Positions 16,218 through 48,281 of a DNA stretch of 48,364 nucleotides are shown piece by piece. The stretch comes from a virus. The notes under the pieces are model-generated. The model was given only the letters and a program-made list of their open reading frames with translations. It was not told the DNA's origin and ran no database searches. The position numbers and the translations under genes were made by a program. The stretch's first letter is position 1, and the number at the start of each line of letters is the position of its first letter. Location of the stretch: IMG/VR virus record IMGVR_UViG_3300040758_000080, positions 1 through 48,364 of that record; one strand, written 5' to 3'.

Positions 16218-16991
16218 ATGAATACCAAACGATTGATTTTCGCGGGCCTTCTGGCTCTTGCCCTGGCCCTTTCTTCAGCAGCGCAGACGATTCCTGGCAC
16301 CACCTACACTTACGGCAGTTTCAAGCCGACCCTGACCGTGTACATCGGCACGTCATCGGCCACCACGACGCAGACGCTCACCGTGGATATTGGCCAAGTA
16401 CCGGGACCGAACGGAATCGTTTTCTATCCGCTGGCGGCCGGCGCGGTTGGGCAATCGGTCATTGTGGGGACTGGGACCAACGCCGATACCGTGACCATTT
16501 CGGCGGTGAACTGCTACACGCCACTGGTTTATGGGACGTGCTCCTTCACGGCGTCCACCTATTCGCACAGTCATGCTACGGGAGAGCCGGTTTTCTTCCC
16601 AACGGCGGTTGAGGCCACGAAATTGGAAGGCGCTTGCACGGGTACGGCCACGGCCAGCCAGACGCTCGGCCTGTACGGACTCGGGCAATGGGCAGCGCAG
16701 GCTTGTACACAGACGGCGGTGGCTCTCGGCAGAACACTTACGCAGCCTGGGACCATCCGTTTCCTTGGAGTCGCGGTATCGGTAGCCGGGACCACAGCAA
16801 ATTCGGGCGTGTTCACGGTTCTGAAGAACGGATCGACCACGACCATTACGTGCACTGTCGGAACGAACACCAGCTGTTCCGACTCCTCGCACTTCATCAC
16901 AGTATCGGATGGCGACATCATCAGCGTGCAATTCACCACACAAGCTGCGGAAACGCTTGCGGGAGCCAAGGCATACGTCTTGATCTACTAA
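16218..16991 (+). CDS. Secreted fibre-like protein with signal peptide
   Basis: A 257-residue protein, ATG 16218 after AAAAGGAA. The N-terminus (MNTKRLIFAGLLALALAL, then SSAAQ) is a clear Sec signal with probable cleavage before Q or T near residue 22. The remainder is Thr/Ser/Gly-rich beta sequence. The last 80 residues (FLGVAVSVAGTTANSGVFTV, LKNGSTTTITCTV, DGDIISVQFT) resemble a beta-sandwich domain found in phage fibre and collar proteins. Unusual position between terminase and portal. Possibly a host-exported protein or a decoration with a hydrophobic anchor. Confidence 0.75.
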   Translation: MNTKRLIFAGLLALALALSSAAQTIPGTTYTYGSFKPTLTVYIGTSSATTTQTLTVDIGQVPGPNGIVFYPLAAGAVGQSVIVGTGTNADTVTISAVNCYTPLVYGTCSFTASTYSHSHATGEPVFFPTAVEATKLEGACTGTATASQTLGLYGLGQWAAQACTQTAVALGRTLTQPGTIRFLGVAVSVAGTTANSGVFTVLKNGSTTTITCTVGTNTSCSDSSHFITVSDGDIISVQFTTQAAETLAGAKAYVLIY

Positions 16992-21999: not shown

Positions 22000-23265
22000 A
22001 TGCCTGTTGGCAATCTCGCAGCCTCAATGGGGCTGCAAAAAGAGTATGTGGTTCCGAAGGTTGAAAAGCTGGCCCTTGCCAGTTCGCGCCTTTGGAAGCA
22101 CATCAAACTGAACACGAAGATCAAGCCGGTTTCCAACCGGCCAACCAGAATCCCCTTACAACCGCTCCAGTGGGGCAATTTCGCAGTCGCCAACCTCGAC
22201 GGCGGCGCGTTCCCGAATGGATCCGGTCCCCAAGTAATCCCCGGCACGATTTCCTGCGTGTCCTTCGTTCACGCGGCCCAGTGGACCGCCTTGGCCGAGT
22301 ACACCACGGACACCGACGAAAAGGCCGTTCAGGATTACGCCACCCTCTTGACCAGCCAGCAAACCGAGATGATCGCCGGCTGCATGGATGCCCTTCTCCA
22401 GTCGGACGGCAGCAACACGCTGGACACCGTGGTTTCGGTTTCCGGAAACGTTCTGACCGTGAACAACCCGAACGCCTTCATGGACGGACAGACGCTCGAC
22501 TTCTACAACGGCCTGCTGGACGCGGGCGGGGTCTTCCTCGGCAGCGCCACCGTGCTCGGCGTGGACGCCATCAACGTGGCGATCACCTTGACGGGGGCAC
22601 CTCCGGCGGGAACGACTGGCGGGACCAGGCTGTTGGTGAGCGGCAGCCCCGGTGTGAGCAACGCCGGTCTGCTGGGCCTGCGCGCCTACAATGTGGCGGG
22701 CAACACCGGCCTGTACATGAACATCCAGAAATCGGCATTCCCCGGCAAGTTCAACGTGCCGAACTTCAACGCGCCTGGCGTGCTGACGCCTTCCCTGGTG
22801 CGTGCAATCGACGCCCTCATGGAGCTTTCCATGGGCGTGGAAAAAGCGCAGGAAGCCGATCTCACCCCCCACTGCAACGTGGACATGGTGACGGCCTGGG
22901 AAAACCTCAGCCTGAACGTGCAGCGTGTGGACGTGCCCACGATCCGCGGCGACGAACAGCCCGACATGCTGAAGAGACGGCGCCCGCGCACCATCGGTGG
23001 CCGCGAGGTCATCGTGAACGAACGCGCCCGGCCCGGCTACATCGACTGGCTGGCCCTGGCCCACTGGTTCCAGGTGCAGTCGAAGGCCCTCTCGCTCTAC
23101 GACGTGAAGGGACAGGTGGTCTTTCCCGCCTACGGACCGGCCGGAACCATCGCGGCGAGCAACCTGATGTACCTGGTGATAATGCTCCAGTTCGCGAGCG
23201 TGCAACCACGATTGAACGCATACCTGAGTGGCGTGACAATTCCGCGCTACCTATTCGGGCATTAG
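22000..23265 (+). CDS. Major capsid protein (HK97 fold, P22-like type)
   Basis: A 421-residue protein, ATG 22000 after GAGAGG. Length, position after the scaffold and sequence style fit P22-gp5-type coat proteins: helical N-arm (LQKEYVVPKVEKLALASSRL), E-loop region, an inserted beta domain about residues 135-215 (VVSVSGNVLTVNNPNAFMDG, TLTGAPPAGTTGGTRLLVSG), and a final P-domain segment with SLYDVKGQVVFPAYGPAGTI. The insertion may be a surface I-domain analogue. A 392-codon frame in +2 is a shadow of its codon bias. Confidence 0.85.
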   Translation: MPVGNLAASMGLQKEYVVPKVEKLALASSRLWKHIKLNTKIKPVSNRPTRIPLQPLQWGNFAVANLDGGAFPNGSGPQVIPGTISCVSFVHAAQWTALAEYTTDTDEKAVQDYATLLTSQQTEMIAGCMDALLQSDGSNTLDTVVSVSGNVLTVNNPNAFMDGQTLDFYNGLLDAGGVFLGSATVLGVDAINVAITLTGAPPAGTTGGTRLLVSGSPGVSNAGLLGLRAYNVAGNTGLYMNIQKSAFPGKFNVPNFNAPGVLTPSLVRAIDALMELSMGVEKAQEADLTPHCNVDMVTAWENLSLNVQRVDVPTIRGDEQPDMLKRRRPRTIGGREVIVNERARPGYIDWLALAHWFQVQSKALSLYDVKGQVVFPAYGPAGTIAASNLMYLVIMLQFASVQPRLNAYLSGVTIPRYLFGH

Positions 23266-32613: not shown

Positions 32614-34218
32614 ATGGCACTTCTCGATCCCTACAACCCGGACGAGTTCGAGCGGTTGCGGCGCGGGCCACCGAATCAGCCGCCAGTAGGCTACCCGGAA
32701 CCGCCGGTGCCCGGAGCGATTCCGACTCCTCGTCTGGCACCGCCTGCGCCCGAAGTACCGAGCCTTGTTCGCGCTCCCCAGACTGGAACTACGGTTCCGC
32801 TCCAGACTGGAACTACGGTTCCGACCTCATCCACCCCGGATCAACAGGAATTGACGCGACTTACAAAACCTCCGTTATCAGGACAGATGGCGCATACGAA
32901 GGCTGACACCGGGCAGAGCGGAGTAGGGCAGATCAAACATGCCGGTCTACGCATCCCGCTCCAAATCCTGAGCGCCTTGGGTGATGCCGTAGTTCCTGCA
33001 CTGACCATGGGAATTCCGGGTACGCAACTTCATCACGACATGCTGGTTCACAATGCAAGGCGGAACGTGGGAGACGAGCAGGCAGCGGCGGCCGCGAAAT
33101 CGAAACAGGAGTTGGAGGCGGCGCAGACCAAGAATCTGACCTCTGAGGCCGAAGAACGGGCGCATCCAAAGCCTAAACTTGGGCAACCGATTCTCACGGA
33201 CCAGGGCTATGTCACCCCCAACGAGACAGAGGGCACCGCCGCGCCACTTCTGGGACCGAATGGACAACCTCTCAAGGCTGGCGAGAAGCCAACGGCTGAA
33301 AGAACGGCCATTCCGAAAATCATCAAAGATGCGGATGGTTATCTGTACCGAGATACGGGAACTGGAGAGCCGACGCCGATTGTAGTTGATGGCCAGCATG
33401 TCAAAGGCCCGATGCCTGCCCCGAAATCCCCGGACCGGGACACAGTTTATCAGGGGATTTTGAAAAAGATCGCTTTGGGTGAACCTCTTAGCAAGGATGA
33501 GGCAGCGGAAAAGCAGGCGTTCGAAGAATGGGTGAAAACCAAAGTCACTGACCCAGCCGTGGCGCGGATGCTTGCGTTGGCGCAGGGCCGCCCGGTTCAA
33601 GTTACCGGAGAAGATGGGACCGCGCATTGGGATCTCGCTGGCCACGCGATTGCAAGTCAGTCTGGTACGACCTCCAGTATCCCGTTTCGCACCGCTGCCG
33701 GGGTTGCAAGGGATTTCACCAGCGGACCCGATGCGCGGACGCTGAATGCGATCAACACGGCACACGCGCACATCACCCAACTCGGGGCAATCGCGGATGC
33801 TCTGAAAAATGGAGATATTCCGTTGGTGAATAGGCTCGCCAATGCCTACTCGCAACAAACCGGACAACCTGCACCGGCCAGTTTCCAACTTGTGAAAACC
33901 GCCGTCGCAGCGGAAATCGCCAAGACGACACATGGCGGTCAGGCCACCTTGGAGGAAACACGGGAGATCAGCAAGGCTATCAATGCGGCGAACTCGCCTG
34001 AACAGTTGGCGGGCGCGTTGGGAGCGGCCCGCACTTTGATGGAGTCGAAACGCGAACAGTTGCGCGGGCAATTCGAGCAGGGCAAGCAAGGCCAGCCGAA
34101 TTTTGGCAGAGCGGGCGAGAAAGCAGCGCCCCCAACGATCACGACCAAGGACGAATACGACAAACTTCCCTCCGGCGCACATTACATCAGGGACGGGGTC
34201 GAAAAGACGAAGCGGTGA
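32614..34218 (+). CDS. Internal (ejection-type) virion protein, probable
   Basis: A 534-residue protein. Proline-rich N-terminal 90 residues include a 24-bp tandem repeat (from 32778) that encodes QTGTTVPL twice. A hydrophobic stretch with helix-breaking residues follows (IPLQILSALGDAVVPALTMG, about residues 112-131), then extended charged helices. The C-terminal 200 residues are helical. Context next to two other Ala-rich proteins suggests an ejected protein that may line a channel; no peptidase or transglycosylase motif seen. Confidence 0.6.
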   Translation: MALLDPYNPDEFERLRRGPPNQPPVGYPEPPVPGAIPTPRLAPPAPEVPSLVRAPQTGTTVPLQTGTTVPTSSTPDQQELTRLTKPPLSGQMAHTKADTGQSGVGQIKHAGLRIPLQILSALGDAVVPALTMGIPGTQLHHDMLVHNARRNVGDEQAAAAAKSKQELEAAQTKNLTSEAEERAHPKPKLGQPILTDQGYVTPNETEGTAAPLLGPNGQPLKAGEKPTAERTAIPKIIKDADGYLYRDTGTGEPTPIVVDGQHVKGPMPAPKSPDRDTVYQGILKKIALGEPLSKDEAAEKQAFEEWVKTKVTDPAVARMLALAQGRPVQVTGEDGTAHWDLAGHAIASQSGTTSSIPFRTAAGVARDFTSGPDARTLNAINTAHAHITQLGAIADALKNGDIPLVNRLANAYSQQTGQPAPASFQLVKTAVAAEIAKTTHGGQATLEETREISKAINAANSPEQLAGALGAARTLMESKREQLRGQFEQGKQGQPNFGRAGEKAAPPTITTKDEYDKLPSGAHYIRDGVEKTKR

Positions 34219-34221
34219 GCC

Positions 34222-35271
34222 ATGGCAAAGCCTGAAGACGATTGGGGAAAAGACGATCTGCCGGTGGCGCGCATAAATGGCGGCCGGGGTGGCGGAAGTC
34301 CCGCTCCGGCTCCTGATGACTGGGGCCAGAATGATGCCCCTGTGCAGTCTCCCGCGAAGCCCGCTCCGTTGGCAACGATGTCGGCCCAACCAAAGCCCGC
34401 CGGATGGGGCGCGCGGCTTTCCCAGTGGGCCGGGAATGCGGCAGACGATCTGCGGTACGGTGGAGATCAGACCATCATCGGGCGTGGTTTTCGAGCCATG
34501 GGTGGCACGCCTCTACTGCGCGACGTTTCACCCGAAACCTCAGAGTTCATGGCCAGCCCTGAGTTGGGTGCATTGAAGGCCGCTCGTGGCGCCGGGGAAG
34601 TGGCGCAATCTGGCAAGCGATGGGAGGGGATGAAAGACCTTGCGGGCGGAGCCGCGCAAGCGGCAGAGATTCCCCTTTCCTTCATGGCTCCTGAAGGCGT
34701 GGCGTCCGGGGCTTCCAAGCTCGGGGAACTTGTGCCGAGCGCGAAGAGATCCGGGGAAGCTCTTTCCCACATCGAGAGTCTTATCGGCCACCAGCCAATC
34801 GACGTAGCAAGGCCGGGGGAAGCTGCGTTGCGGTCTTTCCAGTTGGCCCGCGAAGGCAACCCAGCGCCGGGTAAGCCGATCCGGGATTTCTTGGCCAGGA
34901 CTACGGCCCCGGACCGCTTGACTGCGGGCGGAGCGGAGATCACACACCCTCCATTGACCTTTGGAGAAGGGCGCAACTTGTATTCGGCTGGGCGCGGCAA
35001 ATTGGCAACCGATGAGATGACCCGCATGAACGGAAAGCAGATCAAGGCCCTTGGCGATTTCACGAATGATCTGGGAACCTCTCTCAGCAATACCGCCGCC
35101 GAGCATGGGCAGGGCGAACAGTATTCTAAGGCACTGACGGAATATCGCCGCGCAAAGCAACTCCAGTCGGGCTTGAAGACCGCGGGTAAGATCGCCGGTG
35201 GCGCTGCGGTTGCCGGCGCCGGAGTCGAAGCGGGACGAAGAATTCTCGCTCCTTTATGGAGTTCACGATGA
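34222..35271 (+). CDS. Internal (ejection-type) virion protein, probable
   Basis: A 349-residue protein. N-terminal DDWGKDDLPV and DDWGQNDAPV repeats (about residues 6-15 and 33-42) in a disordered region, then helices. A glycine/alanine-rich segment (GKIAGGAAVAGAGVEAGRR) near the C-terminus could insert into membranes. The DDWG repeats may be docking sites. Function inferred from position. Confidence 0.55.
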   Translation: MAKPEDDWGKDDLPVARINGGRGGGSPAPAPDDWGQNDAPVQSPAKPAPLATMSAQPKPAGWGARLSQWAGNAADDLRYGGDQTIIGRGFRAMGGTPLLRDVSPETSEFMASPELGALKAARGAGEVAQSGKRWEGMKDLAGGAAQAAEIPLSFMAPEGVASGASKLGELVPSAKRSGEALSHIESLIGHQPIDVARPGEAALRSFQLAREGNPAPGKPIRDFLARTTAPDRLTAGGAEITHPPLTFGEGRNLYSAGRGKLATDEMTRMNGKQIKALGDFTNDLGTSLSNTAAEHGQGEQYSKALTEYRRAKQLQSGLKTAGKIAGGAAVAGAGVEAGRRILAPLWSSR

Positions 35272-37757
35272 AACTGAAACTGCTGATTCCCTTTCTCGCC
35301 GCGCTCGCCTGCTACGGGCAGGCTGTCCGCGTCGATCCGATACCAGCCTTCACGGTGGCAAGCAACGTGCCCGCCGGGGCGAACCCGCCGATTCTGGCGC
35401 TGCCTGGGGCGACCGTGGCGGTGTGCGCGGATGCCGGTTGCTCTGCTCCGTTGACCACATACACGGACGCTGGAGGTGCAACCATTTGCCAATCGGCTAC
35501 TCCTCTGGTGCCAGCCGGAACCGCCTCATGTGCCGGTACAACGGATTCCCGGGGAAACTTCGGTTTCTGGGTGACGGCTGGAACGAACGGCTGGTACAAG
35601 ATCACGACGTTGAGCACCACCTATGGTCCATACCCATTCAGCGCGCCCGGTGGCGGGGGTGGCGGCGGCGGAGGATCATCCTTCTCAGCGATCACCGGAG
35701 GCACGAATAACGCTTCTCTGGTAATCGGGCCGAGCGGTTCGCTTACGAGGTCAGGAGGAACGATTGACGCGAGTTCCTGGGTGGGAGTGGGCATCTCGCC
35801 ACCGACGACCGCAAACCAAGTTGCGCTTACGACATCAACCACGGCGGCAGCTTGGAAAACAATTCCAAATTGTCCAGATGGAAGCGGGCACCTGAACTAC
35901 AATGGCACGTTCACATGCGGCACCAGCGGCGGAGGATCTTCCACCGCAATGGTCTATTCCTTCAACCCGAATTCCACATCCACTTTGACATGCGGCTCTG
36001 CCACGAGTTACTGGTTCGAAGCCAGCACCACCCTTACCGGAGCCGCAACAATTTCCTCAGTGACATGCCCTCCGCCATCTGGTGGCTATGTGCAGGTGTC
36101 TTTTACCTTCAGCCAGGGAAGCACGGTCTACGGAGTAACGCTTCCGGCACCGTTCAATTCTGGACTGTGGTCGCTCATGCCTGCCAATTCAAGCATGACG
36201 TGCTCTGGGCAGTACGACGGTACGAGTTGGCCGGCTGTTTGCGGTTCCTCGGCCAATGTAACGATCCTGCCCGGCACCGTGATTTTATCCGGCATGGGAG
36301 GAATTGTCCAATGTCTCGGGCTGAACACCTTGAATCAGATGGTCGGAACCGGAACGCCTTGCGGAACCGGGGGCGGAGGCGGGACGCCAGGTGGGACGAA
36401 CGGGCAACTCCAGTGGAATAATGGAGGCGTATTTGGAGGTTTCACCGCTACTGGAGACCTCACCTTCTCGGAGCCGAATTTTACGCTCAATACGGTGAAC
36501 ACCAGCCCCGGAGTGCCGGGTACATTCGGCGATTCAAGCCATGTCGCACAGATCACGGTCAATGCAAAAGGTCTTGTGACTGGAGTAACAGCAGTTTCCA
36601 TATCCGGTGGTGGCGGAGGAAGCCCTGGGGGTTCTAATGGGCAGATCCAATACAACAACTCTGGAGCCTTCGGAGGATTCACGGCCGGCGGGGATCTTAC
36701 TTTCTCTAATCCGAACTTCACCCTAGCGACAGTGAATTCCAGTGTAGGAGACTGTGGGAGTTCTTCTCGTTTCGCTGTCCCGACGCTGGACGGTAAAGGG
36801 CGCACAACAGCCTGCACTTCATATGCTTTTCCCAGCGCGCCCTCCGACATGATGACCACCGATACCGCGCAGGCGGTTACGGGCACCAAGGATTTCCAAA
36901 TTAACCAAAGATTTGACGCGCTCCAACAGTTCTACTACAGTTCAAGCGCCCCCTCGTTTTCCTGGATGCAAGGTATCAGCGGAACTTATAATTTCGGATG
37001 GTGGGATTCGTCCTCAGTACTGCGAATGTACCTAAACAACAGCGGCATGTCTCCGCTGGGAGGATCTGGAATCACCTTGGTCGCGCCGAGTGTATGGGCC
37101 TTAGCAACAAGCACCAATACACCATCCATGCTGGTCCAGGGAGCAACATCTTCTTCAACATACGTCCTTGGGGTTCAAGGTGGATCTGGCAGCACCTCGG
37201 ACCTGGAATCGTTTTTCAATAGTAGCGGCAGCAAAGTCGCATATGTCGGATATCAAGGTAACATCCAGGGTTCAACTATATACACAACATCCACGGCGTA
37301 CCTGAGCGACATAATGGGGCCTATAGTCTTTTCCGGCGTATCGGCAACAACCTCGACTTCTACACTGCTTCAATTGGGGAATTTAGTCGGATTGTACAAC
37401 AACGTGGCGACCGCAGGCATGGGCATTCCGCCGATCTACTTCACGGAGGCTCTTACCGGGCAGACTGGAAGCATCAGCACAACAAGTATCACGTGTGGTG
37501 GTTCGATGTGCCCAGCTGGTCAGTACCGACTGGCCGTCAATATGCTTGGAACGGGGGGATCTGGTGCTGTCACGTTGAATATTGGTTGGCATGATGCCTA
37601 CTCATTAAACTATGAACTTTGCGACATAACTGTGACTGGCAGCCCATGCCAAAGTGAGCTTCCAATCCATACTGATGGCAGCCAGCAGATAAGTTTCTTC
37701 ACTACGTACACAGGGTTGACATATCAGCTTTTTTTTGTATTGGAAAGGTTGCAATGA
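35268..37757 (+). CDS. Tail-fibre-like protein with N-terminal signal peptide
   Basis: An 829-residue protein. ATG 35268 overlaps the previous stop and has GGAG 6 nt upstream; ATG 35256 is an alternative. Starts MKLKLLIPFLAALACYGQ, a Sec signal; Cys15 is in a weak lipobox context. A classic phage fibre body follows: Gly-rich linkers and two repeats of GQLQWNNGGVFGGFTATGDL / GQIQYNNSGAFGGFTAGGDL with NFTL.TVN, then a beta C-terminal domain (TSITCGGSMCPAGQYRLAVN). A fibre that carries an export signal is unexpected, because tails assemble in the cytoplasm. Confidence 0.75.
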   Translation: MKLKLLIPFLAALACYGQAVRVDPIPAFTVASNVPAGANPPILALPGATVAVCADAGCSAPLTTYTDAGGATICQSATPLVPAGTASCAGTTDSRGNFGFWVTAGTNGWYKITTLSTTYGPYPFSAPGGGGGGGGGSSFSAITGGTNNASLVIGPSGSLTRSGGTIDASSWVGVGISPPTTANQVALTTSTTAAAWKTIPNCPDGSGHLNYNGTFTCGTSGGGSSTAMVYSFNPNSTSTLTCGSATSYWFEASTTLTGAATISSVTCPPPSGGYVQVSFTFSQGSTVYGVTLPAPFNSGLWSLMPANSSMTCSGQYDGTSWPAVCGSSANVTILPGTVILSGMGGIVQCLGLNTLNQMVGTGTPCGTGGGGGTPGGTNGQLQWNNGGVFGGFTATGDLTFSEPNFTLNTVNTSPGVPGTFGDSSHVAQITVNAKGLVTGVTAVSISGGGGGSPGGSNGQIQYNNSGAFGGFTAGGDLTFSNPNFTLATVNSSVGDCGSSSRFAVPTLDGKGRTTACTSYAFPSAPSDMMTTDTAQAVTGTKDFQINQRFDALQQFYYSSSAPSFSWMQGISGTYNFGWWDSSSVLRMYLNNSGMSPLGGSGITLVAPSVWALATSTNTPSMLVQGATSSSTYVLGVQGGSGSTSDLESFFNSSGSKVAYVGYQGNIQGSTIYTTSTAYLSDIMGPIVFSGVSATTSTSTLLQLGNLVGLYNNVATAGMGIPPIYFTEALTGQTGSISTTSITCGGSMCPAGQYRLAVNMLGTGGSGAVTLNIGWHDAYSLNYELCDITVTGSPCQSELPIHTDGSQQISFFTTYTGLTYQLFFVLERLQ

Positions 37758-38062
37758 AAAACACAAGGATAATTCTGTTTGCTCTTACTCTGGCTGTCAT
37801 GCCAGCCTGTCACATTACAGAGAAAGTACCTGCCGAGGTACAATTTGTACGTGACGAAGCTACGCGCTTTCAGCAGTACACCGATCTTGTAAACCGCCAG
37901 AAAGAAGACGCGGCGTCCACCCAGAGTTTCATCAAGCTCTGGGGCGATACCGTTTGCAAGAAGCGCGACCAGCAGTTGATCGCCTTCGGGGATCGGGTTG
38001 GATGCGGAACTCCGCCACCCGCCGCGCCACCAGTAGCACCTCTTCCGAAGGAGAAGAAATGA
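37754..38062 (+). CDS. Small lipoprotein
   Basis: A 102-residue protein, ATG 37754 overlapping the previous stop (ATGA), GGAAAGG upstream. The N-terminus (MKNTRIILFALTLAVMPAC) has a basic start, a hydrophobic core and a lipobox-like MPAC, giving a lipid-modified Cys19. The mature part is helical (FVRDEATRFQQYTDLVNRQK) and ends in a proline-rich tail. It could be a spanin-like outer-membrane component or a superinfection-exclusion lipoprotein; context does not decide. Confidence 0.65.
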   Translation: MKNTRIILFALTLAVMPACHITEKVPAEVQFVRDEATRFQQYTDLVNRQKEDAASTQSFIKLWGDTVCKKRDQQLIAFGDRVGCGTPPPAAPPVAPLPKEKK

Positions 38063-38568
38063 TCCCGCTGCTCTTTGCTGCGCTGCTCATGGGGCCATTC
38101 ACGGCCAGCGGAAACTTTGCCTACAACCTCTACGGCACCTTGGACACGCGCCCGCAGACGTTTGGGTATCAGGATTCTCAGGAAGCAGTTCTCACGTTTT
38201 CGCCGCCGCCGGGCCTCCGCGTCCGCATAACCAGGCTGCGCGGCGATTTGGTGGCGTGGGCCACCCCCTCAACCGTCCCCGCGCCACCACCCCCAGGAAC
38301 CGCGGCTGGCGTGCTCCTGGCCTTCCACGACAGCACTCCCGATGGTTCTACGCGCTGTGACTACTGCGCGGACAACACTCCCCTCTACCTTCAGGACTCC
38401 GTAACCGCAGCGAAGCCAAACACGCGGGCGCCGTTCGACGTGGCGGTGGATTGGGTGCTGCCAGCCGACAATCGTATGATCGTGAAGGCCGCGAGCTACC
38501 TGAACACGACCGGCCAGACCATACACGCCGAGGCCACGTTCACCGTGACCTTCAAGGAGCAACCATGA
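38059..38568 (+). CDS. Secreted beta-rich protein with signal peptide
   Basis: A 169-residue protein from ATG 38059 (ATGA overlap, AAGGAG upstream). Short signal MIPLLFAALLMGPFTASG without basic residues. The mature part is beta-rich (RVRITRLRGDLVAWATPSTV, RAPFDVAVDWVLPADNRMIV). Resembles accessory beta-sandwich proteins in phage fibre clusters. Role unknown. Confidence 0.65.
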   Translation: MIPLLFAALLMGPFTASGNFAYNLYGTLDTRPQTFGYQDSQEAVLTFSPPPGLRVRITRLRGDLVAWATPSTVPAPPPPGTAAGVLLAFHDSTPDGSTRCDYCADNTPLYLQDSVTAAKPNTRAPFDVAVDWVLPADNRMIVKAASYLNTTGQTIHAEATFTVTFKEQP

Positions 38569-38933
38569 ACCTCTACGGAAGTCTGCAACCAGGCGGTGTG
38601 CTGACCGCCCTGTACCCCGGCAATTCCATGACGCTGTTCGACGGGACGGAGACGCCCGCAGGCGGCATGAAATCGCTGGCCTTCGCGCGCGCTATGGGAG
38701 GCTCGCCGACCGACAACGGCATCACGTTCTACGCCTCGGCGCTGCCCGCCGGCTCGGTAGTGGAGATCGAGGGTGCCAATGAGGATATCGACACGAGCTA
38801 CCAAGTTTTGCAAGCGTTGAGTCCCGACACGAACGGGAATGCCAGCTACACCGACATCGGCCGTGCGGCGTTCTTCCGAGCCGTGCTTAGTACTGCGGGC
38901 GCCACGATGCCCCGCGTGATCGCCCAGAGGTGA
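38565..38933 (+). CDS. Conserved beta-sandwich phage protein, 122 aa
   Basis: ATG 38565 with AAGGAGC upstream and overlap with the previous stop. No signal peptide. The order ITFYASALPAGSVVEIEGAN, EDIDTSYQ, SYTDIGRAAFFRAVLS and MPRVIAQR matches a small protein found in many phage tail or capsid-decoration clusters. Likely a virion surface protein. Confidence 0.65.
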   Translation: MNLYGSLQPGGVLTALYPGNSMTLFDGTETPAGGMKSLAFARAMGGSPTDNGITFYASALPAGSVVEIEGANEDIDTSYQVLQALSPDTNGNASYTDIGRAAFFRAVLSTAGATMPRVIAQR

Positions 38934-38936
38934 ACC

Positions 38937-39575
38937 ATGAAACGCTTGATCTTTCTCTCGCTGTTGATCGCCCTTTGCGCGCTCGCCCAGAATCCAGCCA
39001 CACCACTGCCTACCACGGCGACGAATCCGAACGGCCACGCTTGCCAGTCGAACGCCATCCTGAACTACGTTCCCTCGGGCGTGATCTACACATGCCAGAA
39101 CGGATTCATGGCGGTAGCGGGCACCGGACCCTGGACCCGCACCGGCAACACGATCTCCCCAACGAATGCGGGGGATAGCGTAGCGATACCGACTACGTTA
39201 CCTGGGAGTTTACCGACCTCGACAGGGCCAAGTGGTGTTCTGGTTCCTGTGCTAATCTCCACTTCCGGCCCGGTTTCGGCAGTCGCTACGGGGTTCTACA
39301 TCAACAACGCGAGCGGGGCGTTGACGTACACTTTGCCCGTGATTACCAGCGCCAACGTCGGGCTGCAATTGTGCTTTCGCAACGCTGTCACGCGAACCGG
39401 AGCAATCACGCTTACGGCACCCGCTTCCACCTACATTGACGTAGCGGGGGCCGTGGGAAGCGCGGCAGGCAACTTGGTGAGCGGTGGGGCACTTGGGGAT
39501 GCGGCGTGCGTGGTCGCAATCGACACCACGCACTACTACGCCTACGTTGGCAATGGCACTTGGACGGGGAGTTAG
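38937..39575 (+). CDS. Secreted fibre-like protein with signal peptide
   Basis: A 212-residue protein. The N-terminus MKRLIFLSLLIALCALAQ is a strong Sec signal with cleavage expected after Ala17. The mature region starts NPATPLPTTATNPNGHACQS; the C-terminal half (GALTYTLPVITSANVGLQLC, TLTAPASTYIDVAG) resembles a fibre-tip domain found in phage structural proteins. Unknown function. Confidence 0.7.
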   Translation: MKRLIFLSLLIALCALAQNPATPLPTTATNPNGHACQSNAILNYVPSGVIYTCQNGFMAVAGTGPWTRTGNTISPTNAGDSVAIPTTLPGSLPTSTGPSGVLVPVLISTSGPVSAVATGFYINNASGALTYTLPVITSANVGLQLCFRNAVTRTGAITLTAPASTYIDVAGAVGSAAGNLVSGGALGDAACVVAIDTTHYYAYVGNGTWTGS

Positions 39576-39579
39576 AACC

Positions 39580-41817
39580 ATGCGCAAACTATCCATCATT
39601 CCCGCGCTACTTCTGTCCGGTGCGCTTGCCGCGCAGATCCTCGGGCCAATTGTCAGCGGTGGCAAGCAGTGTTGTACCTATTACGTAGATCCTTCCGGCA
39701 GTGACTCGGCTAATGGCCTCACGCCTGCGACCGCCTGGCAGACCATCGCCAAAGTTAACGGCACCACGCTTACGCCGGGCCAGTCGGTCGGGTTCGCCCG
39801 CGGCGGGGTGTGGCGAGAGCAGTTGACCCCAGGGCAGAGCGGAACAGCAGGAAGCCCGATCACGTTTGGAGCGTATGGGAGTGGGGCGACGCCGATTCTT
39901 ACTGGCGCCGATATCTTTAGCTGGACCACAGAGGCGCAGGCTGGAACTAGTTTCACTTCAGACGCGAATCTACAGGCATACTATTATTTGGAAAACAACT
40001 GGAATGATGGAACAGCGAACGCCAATACCTTAACCGCTTCCGCAACTCCCCCAACGTTCGTCACAAGCTCTCCGAGTCCAGTACAAGGAACTTACTCTGC
40101 CGCGTTTGTATCTGCTAGTAGTGAGCAAGGGTCTAGAACGAATGCAAATCTATCGGCAGCGTTTCCAGGGAAAAACACCTACCAATCAGCAATTACAGTG
40201 GGGGGCTGGATACAGACTACCTCTAGTGCTGGCGTGCGAATGAATGCCATTACCAAAGCAGCAGCATGGCAGGTTCGAAAGGATAGCAACAATTATTGGC
40301 AGTTCATCCTTTTTGACTCTGGAGGAACTGGCCAGACGGCGCAGGCTAACGCAATCAACACGGATGGCGTCTGGACTCACGTTATTGGACGTTGGAACGG
40401 GGCTGATGAGGTAGCGCTGTTTATCAACGGTGTCAAACAGACCACCACTGCTACAAGCGCAAGCATGAAGACGGATACCGGAGCCTTTTCCATCGGCACG
40501 TATTCTACCAGTTATCTCAACGGCCATGCTGACGAGGTAGTGGTATTCGACAGAGCCTTGACGGATGCAGAGATTTTATCTCTGGCGACACACGGTCTTG
40601 ATGGCGCTCGCAATGGTTTCGATTTATACTACGCCTCTACTTCGGTGCAACCAACTCAGGTATTTCGGGATGGCTTGCGCCTTACTTTAGCGGCCTCAAA
40701 GGTATCTCTTGCTTCTGGTATGTACTGGTGGGATTCAGGAAATGAGCGCATTTACGTTTTTGATAACCCGTCGGGCCACACGGTTGAGGCTAGTCAAAGA
40801 AGCTATGCAGTACAGATTAGCGGTCGCAGTTATTTGACCGTACAAGACCTTACGCTTACTCAGGCGAACGCAGCCAACTTATATGCGAGCGGAAATTCGA
40901 ACTGGCTTAGAGTTATAAATAATACTCTGTCCTACGCTGGTACGGCAGTGTGGGAGTCAGCGCTGATGCTAAATGGGGCGTCGAACTGTTTAGTTGCAGG
41001 AAATCGAGTGGCTTACAGCCCTATTGGAATCTATCTAAGCGGGTATGGACCAGCCACGACAGACAACAACCTAGTATCAGGCAATACCGTGAGTTACACG
41101 AGTGACGACGGGATTGAAATAGGGCCGGGGGGGGATCGAGGGCCGGTTGGCAACCTGATAACGCAGAACAGTTGCTCTTATTCCAATCAGACGGCAGACG
41201 ATGGGGCGTGTATCCATGTCTTTGATACTGGAACAGGCAATATTATTAGCTACAATGTCGTGTTCAACTCAGGCACCGCGTCAACCAAGGCGGCTGGCAT
41301 TATGCTAGACACTCCAGGTGGGGGAACGGAGCCGACTCTCGTAGCCTACAACGTGGGATACGGAAACACGAATGGTTGCATTGATGTCGGATCGGAAGCC
41401 GCAGACCTAATCTACAACAATACATGCTACAACAACAACACACAGAGCTACAATGCAGGCGAGTTAAACACTTTCAGCCCGGCCACCGGGTTCATCTTCA
41501 AAAATAACCTCGCATGCCCCTCAAGTGGGAAGTATGTCACAAGTGCATATTCCGTGTCGGGCACCACATTCGACTACAATTTCTATTGCAGCGGCGGTGC
41601 AGCCAGTGCGTTTTATGGCGATGGGACTGCCTATAGTTTCGTGAATTGGCAGGGGGCTATCACTGGAGACGCACACTCAAGTAGCGGTGGCGATCCCTTA
41701 TTCACCAACGCAGGCGCTGGCAACTTCACCCTCCAGCCTGGCTCCCCCGCCATCGGAACAGGCGTGTACATCCCTGGCGTGAGCACGGCGAATCCTCCGA
41801 ACATTGGAGCGAAATAG
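39580..41817 (+). CDS. Secreted tail-spike-like beta-helix protein with LamG domain
   Basis: A 745-residue protein from ATG 39580; the longer frame to 39484 lies inside the previous gene. Signal MRKLSIIPALLLSGALAAQ. Residues 27-110 begin a parallel beta-helix (YYVDPSGSDSANGLTPATAW). About 130-340 is an inserted LamG-like sandwich (YYYLENNWND, THVIGRWNGADEVALFINGV, LNGHADEVVVFDRALTDAEI). Residues 400-700 are right-handed beta-helix repeats (NNTLSYAG, NRVAYSPIGIYLSG, NTVSYTSDDGIEIG). Polysaccharide lyase or depolymerase activity is plausible for this architecture. Confidence 0.8.
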   Translation: MRKLSIIPALLLSGALAAQILGPIVSGGKQCCTYYVDPSGSDSANGLTPATAWQTIAKVNGTTLTPGQSVGFARGGVWREQLTPGQSGTAGSPITFGAYGSGATPILTGADIFSWTTEAQAGTSFTSDANLQAYYYLENNWNDGTANANTLTASATPPTFVTSSPSPVQGTYSAAFVSASSEQGSRTNANLSAAFPGKNTYQSAITVGGWIQTTSSAGVRMNAITKAAAWQVRKDSNNYWQFILFDSGGTGQTAQANAINTDGVWTHVIGRWNGADEVALFINGVKQTTTATSASMKTDTGAFSIGTYSTSYLNGHADEVVVFDRALTDAEILSLATHGLDGARNGFDLYYASTSVQPTQVFRDGLRLTLAASKVSLASGMYWWDSGNERIYVFDNPSGHTVEASQRSYAVQISGRSYLTVQDLTLTQANAANLYASGNSNWLRVINNTLSYAGTAVWESALMLNGASNCLVAGNRVAYSPIGIYLSGYGPATTDNNLVSGNTVSYTSDDGIEIGPGGDRGPVGNLITQNSCSYSNQTADDGACIHVFDTGTGNIISYNVVFNSGTASTKAAGIMLDTPGGGTEPTLVAYNVGYGNTNGCIDVGSEAADLIYNNTCYNNNTQSYNAGELNTFSPATGFIFKNNLACPSSGKYVTSAYSVSGTTFDYNFYCSGGAASAFYGDGTAYSFVNWQGAITGDAHSSSGGDPLFTNAGAGNFTLQPGSPAIGTGVYIPGVSTANPPNIGAK

Positions 41818-41818
41818 C

Positions 41819-42199
41819 ATGAACCGAACCCTTCTCCCCCTTCTCCTGCTCTGCGCTACGGCGTGGGCGACGATCACGTATACACCCGGCTCTACCACCT
41901 GCTCAGGTCACCCCTGCGTGGTCGCGGTAACGTGCGCCACGGGGACATGCGCCGCGACCTTCACAAATGCCGACGCCGCGGACCTTGGCACTGGCGCGGC
42001 GGCTACCTGCTCATTCACGGGAGGGGTGCCGAGCGTTCAGGTCACAAATGGAGGTTCGAACTACCGCATTGCAACGCCTACCGTGGTGGCAATCACCAGC
42101 ACTGGCGGGGCGCCGACTGTGCCAGCGAGTTTGACGCCAATCATCAGCCCACATGACATTGGGCCGGTGCAGATGACTTTGATTCCGGGGGCGATGTGA
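41819..42199 (+). CDS. Small secreted protein with signal peptide
   Basis: A 126-residue protein from ATG 41819 with GGAG about 10 nt upstream. Signal MNRTLLPLLLLCATAWA, cleavage before TITYTPG. Mature part is Thr/Ala/Cys-rich and beta-like, with an SVQVTNGGSNYRIATPTVVA segment like those in collagen- or fibre-associated phage proteins. Stop overlaps the GTG at 42196. Confidence 0.65.
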   Translation: MNRTLLPLLLLCATAWATITYTPGSTTCSGHPCVVAVTCATGTCAATFTNADAADLGTGAAATCSFTGGVPSVQVTNGGSNYRIATPTVVAITSTGGAPTVPASLTPIISPHDIGPVQMTLIPGAM

Positions 42200-45045
42200 C
42201 AATTTTATCCGTTGAATTCATGCGACAAAAAGCTTTTTATCCTCTTGTGTTTCTCGCGATCCACGCAGCTTTCGGCGGGCAGTCACTTGTGGTCGGTGGA
42301 ACTGGTACGCCACCAAGCGTTACCCTTCCCAACACAGCCCCTTGGACCACCATTGGGGTGAACACTCAGCCGATGCGATGGGAGATGCGATTCCACGGGA
42401 TGGTTAGCAACCTACCCCAATTTGGGATTAGCTACGGCGCATCTTCGATGTACCAAGACACCAACAATAATGAATACTCTGGCACTGCGGCATTCATGGC
42501 AGACAGTGATTTGCGCGCTGTCATCTATGGGTGCTGTGCGGGGATCTCGGATTTGCTGGTTCGCATTCAGCGAGACGTGGTGAACTCGCGGTATACCTTT
42601 GAGGTGTGGAACACTCAAACAGGGGCGTATCTGTCAGCGGTCAGTTCTACGATCACCTCATGGTCTGGGTCAAGTTGGGCCGGCTACACACTGAACGCAG
42701 TGACTGGAGAGGATACGGCTTGGTTCCGGTGGTACGGCAGCGCCGTCACTATGGGTACTCCCATAAACCAAACTGCAACGGGAGACTTGGCGGACTGGGA
42801 ATTCGAGGGGAATCTGAACGATTCGAGCGGGCATGGTCTCACGATGGTCGCTGGATCTGCGTCAGTAGGATACGTTGCCACCCCGACGTATATGCCGTCG
42901 TGCAGCGCGGGGACTACCCAGACAATTCGTGTGGGAACATCAGGGACGTTGCATGGCACAGGAAGCGCTAATGATGGGGGAAGCACGCTTACCTATGCGT
43001 GGACGCAGACTTCAGGCCCCACTCTGGCGATCACTGGAGCCACGACAGCTACTCCCACTGTAGGGCCAGCAACGGCCTTCGCAGATTATGTGTTCTCGCT
43101 GGCTTGTACTGACGGTTCGAGCCAGACCACCACGAGCACGGTTGAGGACGGCTCAGTGGTCGCGGACGCCAGTGGTATAGTGACCACCGGCAATTCCGCT
43201 TTCGATACACTGGTGGGCGGGCTGGTCATGGACGGCATGAATCCCTGGCCTTATGCTGATACCTCCTATGCGGCGGATGCCAGTATTCAGTACCAGGATT
43301 TGACCACGTTGCCCAACTCCACAACTCCGTACTACTTTCCCTGGTGGGACGTTGCGGACGCAGGGACAATCACCGTTACGGCTGGTTCTACGGCAGTTGT
43401 GGGAGTCGGCACCACGTTTACGACAACTTTCTGTCAAGGTCCCGGCAGTCCTACGGTTGTGCAGTCTGGCGCAGGTATTATCGTCTGTTATCCGTTTGGC
43501 TCCCTAACTGGGCATCGCCTGATGCCAATAGCAAGCTGCACGGATAACACTCACATGACCATGCAGCAGCCGTGGGGCACGGACGTATCCGATTGTCATT
43601 CAGGAGGGTGTGGATATGCGGACAATTCGGCTGCTGGAACCTGGGAGTACAGCAGCTCGCCCGCGAATTATTACGATAACGTGGTCGCTTTTTACGGGGA
43701 ATACTATCGAACGGGACTGACCAAATGGCAGACGGCTGCCCGGCTGCTGGCGGATCGATTCTGGGAAGGTCCAGATATGGATAGAGGAAACACCTACACC
43801 CAAGGTGGGTACGCTGAGAAAGATCCACGTACGCACAGTCTTATGGGCTTGGTGTTGCGGGCACTGGACAGCCCCCCGCAAGACATGTGGACTGGGCTGG
43901 AAAAGCTGTTCGCTAATAGCCCAGAGTGGATTGACACTGGATACCCAAGCACTTGGCTCCCGGGGGTGTACGATGTGAGAGAATCGGCCTACTCATTGGC
44001 GGAACTCGCAGAGTGTGCATTATTCGATCCCAATGCCTACAAAACAACGTGCCAGTCAGTGGTCAACCGTGTAATCACTGGATACTACACAACGGCCCGA
44101 TTCTCGGACGGAAGTTGGCGAGATTTCTATGGGACAACGGATCTCACAAGCTATGTTACGTTGACGCATGGTTCGACCGCAGTGACGGGGGTGGGGACTG
44201 CCGGGGATTGGGCGAGCAGCAACTTCAACCCCACGACGCCTCCCTACAATCAGATATGGTTCTTTGATGCCACGCACAACGCGACTCCCTGCACTAATCC
44301 ATATTCGTGTATGCCAGACAATAATGGTGACAACACTGCCTATACACCAACATGGGTTAGCACCACAAGCCTGACGCTTGATCGCCCTTACGCCGGGACT
44401 ACAGGAACATACGGTTGGGTGCTTGGGCTGGGTGGAGTCCAGATTGGATATGGCGCGCTTCCCTACATGGAAGGGCTGCTCACCAAAGCGTTTGGGCTGG
44501 CCGCGAAGTCAATCGAGACTGCCTATCCGACAGCAGCAGCGCTTGCCAGCAGCTACGGCGTGGACGCTGCCAACTGGATTCGGACAACAGGATACAGTCC
44601 CGACTTGAAGGCAATCTGGTATGCTGCCGGCTACGTGAACTGTCAGCCACCAATAAATCCAGCAGGTAATACTCCCTGCACAATGGACTATGCAGCAAGC
44701 ACCGAGCGCGAGGTGAATCTGGAAACAATCGGTGGGATCACGATGGCCTATGAATACAACCACAACTCTGCTCTCTTAGCATTCGCCCAGACTCTCTACA
44801 ATGCGGTATGGGCCAAGCCCGGGACATGCGTGAGTTCCCTGTGTGTGTCGGATGGGACCTATGTCAATGCTTGGGATAGTTTCTACATCAGCGGTGCTCC
44901 TCCGGTAAGTGGAGCAGCCCCTAAGTATTTTGGCCAAGCATTTGGCTACTCAATGTGGGATTTTCCGGCGGTCGTGTCATCGTCGTCAAGGCCGGTGCCG
45001 GTGTTTGGTCGTGGAGCAGTGATAGGTCTGGGAGTAGTGAGGTAG
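42196..45045 (+). CDS. Large secreted multidomain spike-like protein
   Basis: A 949-residue protein from GTG 42196 (GTGA overlap); ATG 42220 would give a tidier signal, MRQKAFYPLVFLAIHAAFGG. Domains in order: N-terminal LamG-like sandwich (about 40-225); an Ig/PKD-like domain (SGTLHGTGSANDGGSTLTYA, about 250-315); then an alpha-helical region that may be an (alpha/alpha) barrel (ASIQYQDLTTLPNS, YYDNVVAFYGEYYRTGLTKW, EYNHNSALLAFAQTLYNAVW). Two beta modules with TVTAGSTAVVGVGT / TLTHGSTAVTGVGT interrupt it. The helical part could be a glycan-active domain; no catalytic residues can be assigned. Confidence 0.7.
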   Translation: MTILSVEFMRQKAFYPLVFLAIHAAFGGQSLVVGGTGTPPSVTLPNTAPWTTIGVNTQPMRWEMRFHGMVSNLPQFGISYGASSMYQDTNNNEYSGTAAFMADSDLRAVIYGCCAGISDLLVRIQRDVVNSRYTFEVWNTQTGAYLSAVSSTITSWSGSSWAGYTLNAVTGEDTAWFRWYGSAVTMGTPINQTATGDLADWEFEGNLNDSSGHGLTMVAGSASVGYVATPTYMPSCSAGTTQTIRVGTSGTLHGTGSANDGGSTLTYAWTQTSGPTLAITGATTATPTVGPATAFADYVFSLACTDGSSQTTTSTVEDGSVVADASGIVTTGNSAFDTLVGGLVMDGMNPWPYADTSYAADASIQYQDLTTLPNSTTPYYFPWWDVADAGTITVTAGSTAVVGVGTTFTTTFCQGPGSPTVVQSGAGIIVCYPFGSLTGHRLMPIASCTDNTHMTMQQPWGTDVSDCHSGGCGYADNSAAGTWEYSSSPANYYDNVVAFYGEYYRTGLTKWQTAARLLADRFWEGPDMDRGNTYTQGGYAEKDPRTHSLMGLVLRALDSPPQDMWTGLEKLFANSPEWIDTGYPSTWLPGVYDVRESAYSLAELAECALFDPNAYKTTCQSVVNRVITGYYTTARFSDGSWRDFYGTTDLTSYVTLTHGSTAVTGVGTAGDWASSNFNPTTPPYNQIWFFDATHNATPCTNPYSCMPDNNGDNTAYTPTWVSTTSLTLDRPYAGTTGTYGWVLGLGGVQIGYGALPYMEGLLTKAFGLAAKSIETAYPTAAALASSYGVDAANWIRTTGYSPDLKAIWYAAGYVNCQPPINPAGNTPCTMDYAASTEREVNLETIGGITMAYEYNHNSALLAFAQTLYNAVWAKPGTCVSSLCVSDGTYVNAWDSFYISGAPPVSGAAPKYFGQAFGYSMWDFPAVVSSSSRPVPVFGRGAVIGLGVVR

Positions 45046-45062
45046 GCTGGGCGGAGATAAAC

Positions 45063-45428
45063 ATGGACATCGTTGAACTCACGATTTGGCGCGAGGCCCG
45101 CGGTGAAGGCGAGCCGGGAATGGCGGCGGTCTACCACGTCATCGCCAACCGCGCGGCGGCCGGCCGGAGTTGGCCCGCGGACCCGGAGCGGGTGTGTCTT
45201 CAGGCGCATCAATTCTCGTGCTGGGATTCCAGCAACCCGCAGCGTGACCTGTACCAGAAGGCGGGCGACAACGCCTATGCGCTGGCGGTAGCGATCTGCA
45301 TGCAGCCGGGAGCGGACCCGACCGGCGGGGCGACGGCATACTACGATATCAGCATCCCGGCGCCTTCCTGGGCCACGCCGGAGAATTTCACCGTCCAAAT
45401 TGGTAGACTTCGATTCTTTAAGGTGTAG
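45063..45428 (+). CDS. Endolysin, SleB-type cell wall hydrolase
   Basis: A 121-residue protein from ATG 45063 with GGAG 8 nt upstream; a longer frame opens inside the previous gene. It matches the Hydrolase_2/SleB family: LTIWREARGEGEPGMAAVYH with the catalytic-type Glu11, VIANRA, CLQAHQFSCW, and a C-terminal ATAYYDISIPAPSWA. It cleaves peptidoglycan glycan strands. No signal peptide, so it needs a holin-type exit. Confidence 0.85.
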   Translation: MDIVELTIWREARGEGEPGMAAVYHVIANRAAAGRSWPADPERVCLQAHQFSCWDSSNPQRDLYQKAGDNAYALAVAICMQPGADPTGGATAYYDISIPAPSWATPENFTVQIGRLRFFKV

Positions 45429-45437
45429 AATAAAGCC

Positions 45438-45692
45438 ATGAACACTCAACTCGATGTCGCACTACAGGCGGCCTCAGCCGCCGAAGCAACCTACAATGCG
45501 GACGTGGCAAACATTGCCAACATCCAAACGGCCATTTCAACCGCCTCGGCTCCGCTGGCGCCGGCCCAGGCCAAACTTTCTACGGATGCCTCGGCATTCA
45601 ACGCCACGCTGGACGATCTTAGCGCCGCAGCCCTGGCCGCCAAGGTGCCGGCGGATACGGCTCCCATGGCGGCGGCGAAGGGTCGATCTTAG
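45438..45692 (+). CDS. Small alanine-rich helical protein
   Basis: An 84-residue protein, ATG 45438. Helical, low complexity (LQAASAAEATYNADVANIAN). Positioned between the endolysin and a secreted protein. The final ten codons (PMAAAKGRS) are encoded by the second copy of the 28-nt repeat. Function unknown. Confidence 0.6.
   Translation: MNTQLDVALQAASAAEATYNADVANIANIQTAISTASAPLAPAQAKLSTDASAFNATLDDLSAAALAAKVPADTAPMAAAKGRS
45663..45690 (+). repeat. 28-nt exact repeat, copy 2 (copy 1 at 16156-16183)
   Basis: Identical to 16156-16183, with mismatched bases immediately on both sides. It brings its own codons and the stop follows at once (TAG, 45690-45692). Confidence 0.9.
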
Positions 45693-45710
45693 CCACTCCC
45701 AAACTGAACC

Positions 45711-46196
45711 ATGGGAACACGATTTGGACTCGCGCTTCTGTTCGCTTCGCTGGCATGGGGCCAAGTCCCAGCGCCTGTGGCCTATTCCTACTTTGCCGAG
45801 ACGGGGATCTCCCTCGATTACTTTGCACAGACCATGGCCAGCACCACCGGCTTTGGCGTGCGAATCGGAAGCAGTAATGCCTTCAGCGTCACCGACATAG
45901 ACACTCCAATTGCGCAGCCGGGGGTGAACTATGCGACGTTGCGGACGGCCATCGAGTACCATGTGGCGGCAAGCAAGCTGTGGGAATTTATGGGACTGGG
46001 AGGCGTGGGAATAACGACCAATGGCAGCACGAGTCTGGCATCGTTTGCCGGTGGCACGGCGATGTCATTCGACATCGGAAGCTGGTTGTCCAAAGGGAAA
46101 TTCAGTCTTCCGGTGCTGGCGCAAATGCGAATTATAGCGATCACTGCAAGCCAGGTGAAGCCGACGTATGGTTTTCTATTTCGGAAGACGTTTTGA
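45711..46196 (+). CDS. Secreted, outer-membrane-like small protein
   Basis: A 161-residue protein. Signal MGTRFGLALLFASLAWGQ, cleavage expected before Gln18. The mature part has alternating beta-like segments (GISLDYFAQTMASTTGFGVR, GKFSLPVLAQMRIIAITASQ) and ends in aromatic phenylalanine (FLFRKTF), as outer-membrane beta-barrel proteins do. Might sit in the host outer membrane; ribosome binding site is weak. Confidence 0.6.
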   Translation: MGTRFGLALLFASLAWGQVPAPVAYSYFAETGISLDYFAQTMASTTGFGVRIGSSNAFSVTDIDTPIAQPGVNYATLRTAIEYHVAASKLWEFMGLGGVGITTNGSTSLASFAGGTAMSFDIGSWLSKGKFSLPVLAQMRIIAITASQVKPTYGFLFRKTF

Positions 46197-47428: not shown

Positions 47429-47667
47429 TGGAAGAACAAATCAACAAAGATTCTCGCCCGCGCGCAGTTATCGAAGCCGCGCGGAAATTTGCAACTGGAG
47501 AGATTACGGCTGCCGCCAGGGATGCCGCCAGGGTTGCCGCCAAGGATGCCTCCTGGGCTACCGCCAGGGATGGCTCCGGGGCTGCCGCCAGGGATGCCGC
47601 CAGAGCTGCCGCCAGAGATGCCGCCTGGGCTGCACAAGCGGTCATCATCAGGAGGTATTTATCGTGA
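47428..47667 (+). CDS. Truncated alanine-rich repeat protein, copy 1 of the array
   Basis: A 79-residue protein. It keeps MEEQINK of the full-length copies, then jumps directly to [20 protein letters not shown], so about 90 codons of the constant domain are missing by a clean in-frame deletion. The alanine tract is short (about residues 32-68) and includes unusual units with G and T. The shared C-terminus [11 protein letters not shown] and downstream GTGA overlap are intact. The remaining protein is mainly the repeat helix. Confidence 0.75.
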
Positions 47668-48027
47668 GCCAAATGGAAGAACAAATCAACAAAGTGACCC
47701 TTACCACGACGCTAAATCGTCTTCGTTCCGCTGATGCCTGCGTATCACGATACGCGCACCTGTTGCGTGCGCTCGGCCCGTCATTTGACCACGACGCGCC
47801 GATAAACCTGTTGACTATCTTGGAGCACAACGGGACCGAAGATTGTCTATGGGCTTTGTGCGCCACGGCGGAGAACTGCGATCAAGTGGCGCGATTGATG
47901 GCGGCCGATTTTGCCGAGGCGGTGTTGCCAGTGTTCGAGTCCCAATACCCGAATGATTCTCGCCCGCGCGCAGCTATCGAAGCCGCGCGGAAATTTGCAA
48001 CTGGAGAGATTACGGCTGCCGCCAGGG
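47624..48027 (+). repeat. Long direct repeat, copy 2 (other copy 1-404)
   Basis: Identical by eye to 1-404. It shows that the end of the window, 48238-48364, is present at three places in the sequence as given. Confidence 0.9.
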
Positions 48028-48281
48028 CTGCCGCCATGGCTGCCGCCAGGGTTGCCGCCAAGGATGCCTCCGATGCCGCCTGGGCTGCCGCCATGGCTGC
48101 CTCCGATGCCTCCGAGGCTGCCGCCTGGGCTGCCGCCAAGGCTGCCGCCTGGGCTGCCGCCTGGGCTGCCGCCAGGGTTGCCGCCAAGGATGCCTCCGAT
48201 GCCGCCTGGGCTGCCGCCTGGGCTGCCTTCGATGCCTCCTGGGCTGCACAAGCGGTCATCATCAGGAGGTATTTATCGTGA
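47664..48281 (+). CDS. Alanine-rich repeat protein, Imm-5-like family, copy 2 of the array
   Basis: A 205-residue protein. The constant domain (residues 1-121) is identical to that of the gene at 41-661, but the alanine tract differs in order and content (more K and V, fewer M). GTG 47664 overlaps the preceding stop. If the molecule is circular, its stop at 48281 equals base 44 and it overlaps the GTG of the next copy at 48278 (= 41). Confidence 0.85.
   Translation: MSQMEEQINKVTLTTTLNRLRSADACVSRYAHLLRALGPSFDHDAPINLLTILEHNGTEDCLWALCATAENCDQVARLMAADFAEAVLPVFESQYPNDSRPRAAIEAARKFATGEITAAARAAAMAAARVAAKDASDAAWAAAMAASDASEAAAWAAAKAAAWAAAWAAARVAAKDASDAAWAAAWAAFDASWAAQAVIIRRYLS

Follow-up and report, generated by a model that had tools for sequence, protein, structure and literature searches.

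The window analysed here, the whole of IMG/VR virus record IMGVR_UViG_3300040758_000080 (48,364 bases), holds a podophage-like gene set in which most genes of a fibre/spike cluster (35268-46196), together with a gene far upstream at 16218, code for proteins with N-terminal secretion signals (genes are named by the position of their first base). These signals are almost certainly functional, and export of the proteins that bear them is well supported by sequence comparison. An original prediction, made from the window alone, had allowed for two uses of the hydrophobic N-termini: export by the host secretion route and uncleaved anchoring in the virion. Conservation of the signals, Gln at the predicted cleavage junction, signal-less orthologues starting at the mature N-terminus and paired cysteines tied to the signal all favour the former and disfavour the latter. 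This suggests that the spike-like proteins pass through an oxidising space beyond the inner membrane, unlike those of textbook tailed phages.

Signal peptides and paired cysteines

Signals were judged with our own scorer, which combines a basic n-region, a hydrophobic core and the -3/-1 rule (cut-off at least 10). In the 100 kb of E. coli K-12 used for calibration, this value was reached by 17 of 19 exported, 1 of 39 cytosolic and 6 of 14 inner-membrane proteins; the scorer separates exported proteins well from cytosolic ones, not from N-terminal membrane anchors. Eight genes of the window pass (16218, 35268, 37754, 38937, 39580, 41819, 42220 and 45711; scores 10.0-13.9) and have the features of a Sec/signal peptidase I signal, including small residues at -3/-1. 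When residues 2-40 were shuffled, the score of the window gene was reached rarely (11-49 of 500 per gene). The original prediction had named nine such genes; the ninth, 38059, has no basic n-region and fails the test. The six Gln sites of the prediction held up (predicted cleavage marked by an arrow): SAA↓Q in 16218, CYG↓Q in 35268, ALA↓Q in 38937, LAA↓Q in 39580, FGG↓Q in 42220 and AWG↓Q in 45711.

For comparison, related contigs were fetched and their genes called. Across the window and 15 related contigs, signals were scored in 1 of 200 packaging and virion core homologues versus 41 of 118 other genes of at least 250 amino acids (aa), and the majority of these 41 are fibre/spike candidates. 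Signals are commoner than chance in the large non-core genes. Among the tail fibre and spike genes of P22, HMO-2011, N4 and crAss001, taken as controls, the signal score was reached in 0/27.

In ordinary bacteria disulfides are formed mainly outside the cytoplasm, so paired cysteines provide independent evidence that the signals work. Cys content is 1.89% in signal-bearing proteins versus 0.82% in core proteins, and the summed span of cysteine pairs (observed/expected) is 0.48 versus 0.87. Even cysteine counts occur in 39 of 52 signal-bearing proteins (p = 0.0004) versus 74 of 139 core proteins; homologues are not independent in these statistics, and the p values overstate the case. Pairing tied to the signal, even counts and local pairing are what mature proteins adapted to an oxidising compartment would display; the disulfides themselves are predicted.

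The contrast between forms of gene 16218 with and without a signal can be read as a natural experiment, and we regard it as the best evidence of this analysis. The gene (16218..16991, plus strand, score 13.1) codes for a fibre-like protein of 257 aa with a putative signal of 22 aa (16218-16283), a mature start at QTIPGTTYTYG and cysteine pairs 77/86, 118/141 and 190/198 (mature numbering). We found 65 orthologues, which as a rule follow TerL closely; the window gene itself sits apart from the tail genes. The non-redundant set of 43 comprises 16 signal-bearing (SP+) and 27 signal-less (SP-) forms, with L019, L023, L026, L062 and L108 assigned to SP+ by hand (GTG starts or distant signals) and the partial L023 not counted. 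SP- forms begin at the SP+ mature junction (M-ANRTRFAG versus A↓QNRTRFGG). One specific cysteine pair, whose columns were picked after the alignment had been seen, is present in 16/16 SP+ and 0/27 SP- proteins. In the window protein it is C77/C86; the AlphaFold2 (AF2) model, confident in this part, places these residues where two consecutive strands end. The cysteine count is even in all 16 SP+ proteins (binomial p = 3e-5), while the SP- proteins divide into 6 even, 14 odd and 7 with none (Fisher p = 1.3e-5). In four SP- members only one of the two paired cysteines remains, as expected if the signal had been lost beforehand.

At minimum, the signal state of 16218 has switched 4 times by the supported branches of its own tree and 7 times by the TerL tree. 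Therefore we are not dealing with one frozen event, though the independent contrasts are modest in number: 4/4 supported contrasts agree on the gene tree (sign test p = 0.125) and 7/7 on the TerL tree (p = 0.016), where one may be L092/L094, a phage that has both forms. The original prediction had counted as evidence against itself any homologues that start downstream of the hydrophobic segment. Such starts were found for 16218 only, and in this gene they are informative, since the cysteine pair is tied to the signal.

The best match of the AF2 domain of 16218 is the JBD30 baseplate (8rk3_b, Z 8.2). In L092, SP- and SP+ copies of the family stand in tandem (open reading frames (ORFs) from 2868 and 3710), and one SP+ orthologue (L154:7506-8798, contig G018) matches the ice-binding domain family PF11999 (E = 1.7e-32).

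The first spike protein

The first spike gene of the cluster (35268..37757, plus strand, 829 aa, score 11.1) starts with a putative signal of 17 aa (35268-35318), after which the mature protein would begin with Q-AVRVDP. The signal is followed by an N-terminal domain with four cysteines, repeats and a variable C-terminus, and its 18 cysteines can be grouped as nine close pairs. An upstream start at 35256 was dropped in favour of 35268; the start codon of the latter overlaps the upstream stop (ATGA), as in 37754 and 38059, and these overlaps support the starts chosen for 35268 and 37754.

A search for the N-terminal domain located homologues in 15 distinct places. A signal precedes it in 15/15 (13 scored or with a signal identical to that of the window, 2 judged by eye), which is not the signal-less cytoplasmic protein known from the P22-type tailspike. 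Gln stands at the junction in 14/15 and is followed by a motif like xxRxD. The homologues are 32-51% identical to the window copy and keep the four cysteines in 13/13 aligned rows.

The AlphaFold2 model of the domain is moderate (predicted local distance difference test, pLDDT, 71; predicted template modelling score, pTM, 0.61). Its comparison with the PDB gave the Pan3 tail complex (Z 5.2), the Pam1 tail machine (4.9), the P22 tailspike head-binding domain (4.3) and then further P22 and Sf6 chains. What appears informative in this comparison of a modelled fold is that ranks 1-7 are all podophage tail chains, each score being weak (Z 4.1-5.2). Among viral structure models, the domain matched the N-termini of phage pectate-lyase and tailspike proteins. 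Sequence searches against Pfam, PHROGs and PDB sequences gave nothing firm, and no relative was found in the isolate phage collection. An alignment-based scan for further domains of this kind had too few conserved stretches to work with, and a narrower scan returned known contigs only.

The original prediction had treated secreted proteins and virion fibres as opposites. This opposition may not hold for the first spike which, as the fold comparison suggests, may be both a tailspike and an exported protein. We see no other clear candidate for a receptor-binding gene in the window.

Remaining cluster genes, relatives and host

37754 (37754..38062, plus strand, 102 aa, score 11.1) codes for a small putative lipoprotein. 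The lipobox predicted for it is present, though imperfect (MPA↓C), and the orthologue in contig G002 (score 12.6) shows a proper one, GMAG↓C. Lipobox and small size agree with an o-spanin or other phage lipoprotein; about 7 kb separate the gene from that of the endolysin. In 38059 (38059..38568, plus strand) the hydrophobic N-terminus is not preceded by any basic residue, and neither this gene nor its G002 orthologue (94% identical) gives a score, so it was excluded from the signal-bearing set. The next gene, 38565 (38565..38933, plus strand), codes for a small conserved protein with neither signal nor cysteines. It stands directly upstream of a signal-bearing spike gene in seven contigs (the window, G002, G006, G007, G012, G013 and G014), and our guess is that it could be a virion-side adaptor.

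In the window, 38565 is followed by 38937 (38937..39575, plus strand, 212 aa, score 13.9), a short fibre-like protein with the junction ALA↓QNP and 4 cysteines. Its C-terminal part is 79% identical to that of a protein of an unrelated 83 kb phage (L002:8948-10465), where it is fused behind a different signal-bearing N-terminus. One C-terminal domain behind differing signal-bearing N-termini in unrelated phages points to domain swapping among spikes. 39580 (39580..41817, plus strand, 745 aa, LAA↓QIL, score 12.6) has a concanavalin A-like Laminin_G_3 domain (PF13385, E = 6e-18), and its signal and N-terminus are 67% identical in the same phage (L002/G001). A 7-kb stretch of this phage contains six genes with signals, among them the two that share domains with 38937 and 39580.

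41819 (41819..42199, plus strand, 126 aa, AWA↓TITY, score 12.7) is a small protein for which PHROGs gave baseplate wedge proteins as weak matches. 42220 (42220..45045, plus strand, 941 aa, FGG↓QSL, 17 cysteines, score 10.0) contains a PKD-like domain (PF22352, E = 8e-12) and matches a PHROG tail fibre (E = 2e-5); for this gene an upstream start at 42196 was dropped. 45711 (45711..46196, plus strand, 161 aa, AWG↓QVPAP, score 10.2) codes for a small protein without cysteines near the lysis genes. Its last residue is Phe, a common feature of outer-membrane proteins. The cell wall hydrolase (endolysin; 45069..45428, plus strand; PF07486, E = 6e-15; G002 orthologue 81% identical) has no signal. PHROGs and NCBIfam offered no useful names for most proteins of the cluster.

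Signals of the same kind occur well outside the closest relatives. Among diverse contigs matched via 35268 or 39580, 14 of the 25 complete genes that cover the match scored as bearing a signal, in most cases together with Gln and numerous cysteines. A run of genes with signals was found in the cultured Tunturiibacter phages Tunturi_1 and Tunturi_2; in Tunturi_1 they are gp12, gp13, gp14 (annotated as tail spike), gp16 and gp17 (annotated as virion structural, with beta-helix and chitobiase-type domains), both annotations having been made by homology. The siphophage Tunturi_4 has signals on gp113 and gp114, outside its first 50 kb, and the spike domain of gp114 is 47% identical to that of Tunturi_1 gp17. 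In Tunturi_3 and Tunturi_5 no such genes were found in the first 50 kb, the part scanned. A further signal-bearing fibre family with the mature start QCNGVFP is present in L039, L046, L051 and L055, phage contigs of unknown hosts.

The rest of the window includes TerL (13820-15502; PF04466, E = 1.6e-5; PHROG 2, E = 1e-18), a major head protein (22000-23265, a weak PHROG hit) and, directly before the first spike gene, the signal-less virion-module genes 32614 and 34222 (32614..35271, plus strand), which have homologues in most relatives and belong to the core set. Tandem repeats of an alanine-coding 12-base unit (GGCTGCCGCCAG) lie near both window ends (391-627, 47508-47633 and 48014-48247), and the ORF at 47664-48281 reads through the last of them. 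Relatives of the TerL family were found in 133 IMG/VR contigs and, among 84,980 bacterial and archaeal genomes, in two metagenome-assembled genomes (MAGs), of Bryobacterales and Granulicella, both Acidobacteriota. An acidobacterial host is likely, not proven, since binning of viral contigs can err. As TerL matches occur in only 2 of 396 Acidobacteriota genomes, integration is improbable for most of these phages.

Proposed assembly of exported spikes and comparison with known systems

Our preferred model, to which we give close to an even chance, is that spikes and fibre-like adhesins are exported, cleaved, oxidised and then mounted on virions at lysis. Tailspikes and fibre-like adhesins would be synthesised with Sec/signal peptidase I signals, pass the host inner membrane and be cleaved, usually exposing Gln, and local disulfide bonds would form in the periplasm. 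DNA-filled virions would assemble in the cytoplasm without spikes. Mature spikes would meet these particles at lysis and attach via the N-terminal head-binding-like domain, and some exported proteins would probably stay unattached and bind glycans in soluble form or at the envelope. The P22 tailspike is added last and is able to join heads in lysates, which makes late joining physically feasible. That such two-compartment assembly, in which capsids are cytoplasmic while spikes leave for the periplasm, are oxidised and trimmed there and join only at lysis, is widespread in phages infecting Acidobacteriota and further soil bacteria seems to us conceivable, with a probability somewhat below even.

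Several points weigh against mounting at lysis. We know of no tailed phage that routes its spikes through the periplasm. Being large and probably trimeric, the spikes would need to cross the membrane unfolded and complete their maturation beyond the cytoplasm. The fold match of the 35268 domain to head-binding domains is weak (Z about 3-5 for a model with pLDDT 71 and pTM 0.61). The exported proteins may instead not be virion parts at all, and as secreted or envelope-bound glycan binders, depolymerases or adhesins they could strip exopolysaccharide, mask receptors against superinfection or stop progeny from binding debris. Possible uses put forward in the original prediction were the removal of biofilm or capsule, superinfection exclusion and a coat on released virions. 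We consider the non-virion reading a substantial possibility, though not a probable one. It is favoured by the Laminin_G and PKD domains of window proteins, the ice-binding domain of one relative, the beta-helix and chitobiase-type domains of Tunturi_1 gp17, a lipoprotein within the cluster (37754) and the position of 16218; in addition, several signal-bearing proteins per phage exceed the need of one spike. For 16218, 37754, 41819 and 45711, free or envelope-bound action is equally compatible with the data. However, the first spike has its head-binding-like domain and keeps its place directly after the virion genes across relatives, and without any of these proteins in the virion the phage would be left with no evident receptor-binding protein. 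Mixed use, with the 35268-type spike on virions and those same four proteins in the envelope or outside, would be consistent with the restriction of the head-binding-like domain to 35268 homologues, the lipoprotein-like nature of 37754 and the location of 45711 by the lysis genes, but we rate it as unlikely.

Two further explanations concern the signals themselves. If the hydrophobic N-termini were uncleaved anchors to virion or membrane, their presence alone would be accounted for, and the scorer does pass some inner-membrane proteins (6/14); but Gln at 14/15 junctions, SP- orthologues starting exactly at the junction and a cysteine pair found only with the signal would then be unexpected, as would a membrane in a tailed phage, and we give this explanation very little credence. 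Recent capture of host secreted proteins with relic signals would agree with the host-like Laminin_G, PKD and ice-binding domains. It is hardly compatible with signals kept over the long divergence of 35268-domain relatives (32-51% identity), nor with the loss of the signal together with the cysteine pair in 16218, and we regard it as highly improbable.

The usual assumption is that receptor-binding proteins of tailed phages fold in the cytoplasm. If entire lineages were instead to export them, soil phages would depend on a different assembly route for the stability of their spikes, for the control of superinfection and for host recognition. A signal combined with paired cysteines may also serve as a simple sequence mark for finding candidate receptor-binding proteins in phages whose hosts are uncultured, the group in which fibre annotation is hardest. 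Cultured phages with the same arrangement exist, so the idea is directly testable.

No description of signal-bearing tailspikes was found in the literature searched, which left subscription journals mostly outside. Virion proteins with cleaved signals are known in filamentous phages, whose coat proteins pIII and pVIII assemble in the inner membrane, whereas the window family consists of tailed dsDNA phages with presumably cytoplasmic capsids. The Q-rule, i.e., Gln at +1 after signal peptidase I cleavage, was described for Bacteroidetes (PMC5837995), and Porphyromonas gingivalis phages encode five Q-rule proteins of unknown function (PMC10367356). The window proteins are similar in the signal peptidase I type of signal, Gln at +1 and phage use of the host signal style. 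However, Q-rule systems belong to Bacteroidetes hosts while the window host is probably an acidobacterium (by the TerL matches in Bryobacterales and Granulicella MAGs), the genes of P. gingivalis phages do not form a spike module, and the paired-cysteine evidence is new in the window phages. By a loose measure on small samples, a small residue followed by Gln is found at 59% of phage sites, 36% (13/36) in the Bryobacterales MAG, 26% (5/19) in the Granulicella MAG and 27% (4/15) in E. coli; these host numbers are too small for a Q-rule in Acidobacteriota to be claimed.

Tunturi_1, 2 and 4 (PMC11924767) have acidobacterial hosts, as the window phage probably does, and share with it signal-bearing, Cys-rich spike/structural genes, but differ from it in that no homology to the TerL, 16218 or 35268-domain profiles was found in the stretches fetched. 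The text of the paper describing them mentions neither mass spectrometry nor signal peptides (PMC11924767). Closest to the first spike are the P22-type tailspikes (P22, Sf6, Pam1 and Pan3), composed of an N-terminal head-binding domain and a beta-helix. They resemble it in the predicted mature N-terminal fold (a weak match), the late virion gene position and the podophage-like gene set. The P22 tailspike has no signal and is produced in the cytoplasm, while the window domain stands behind a signal peptide and has four conserved cysteines.

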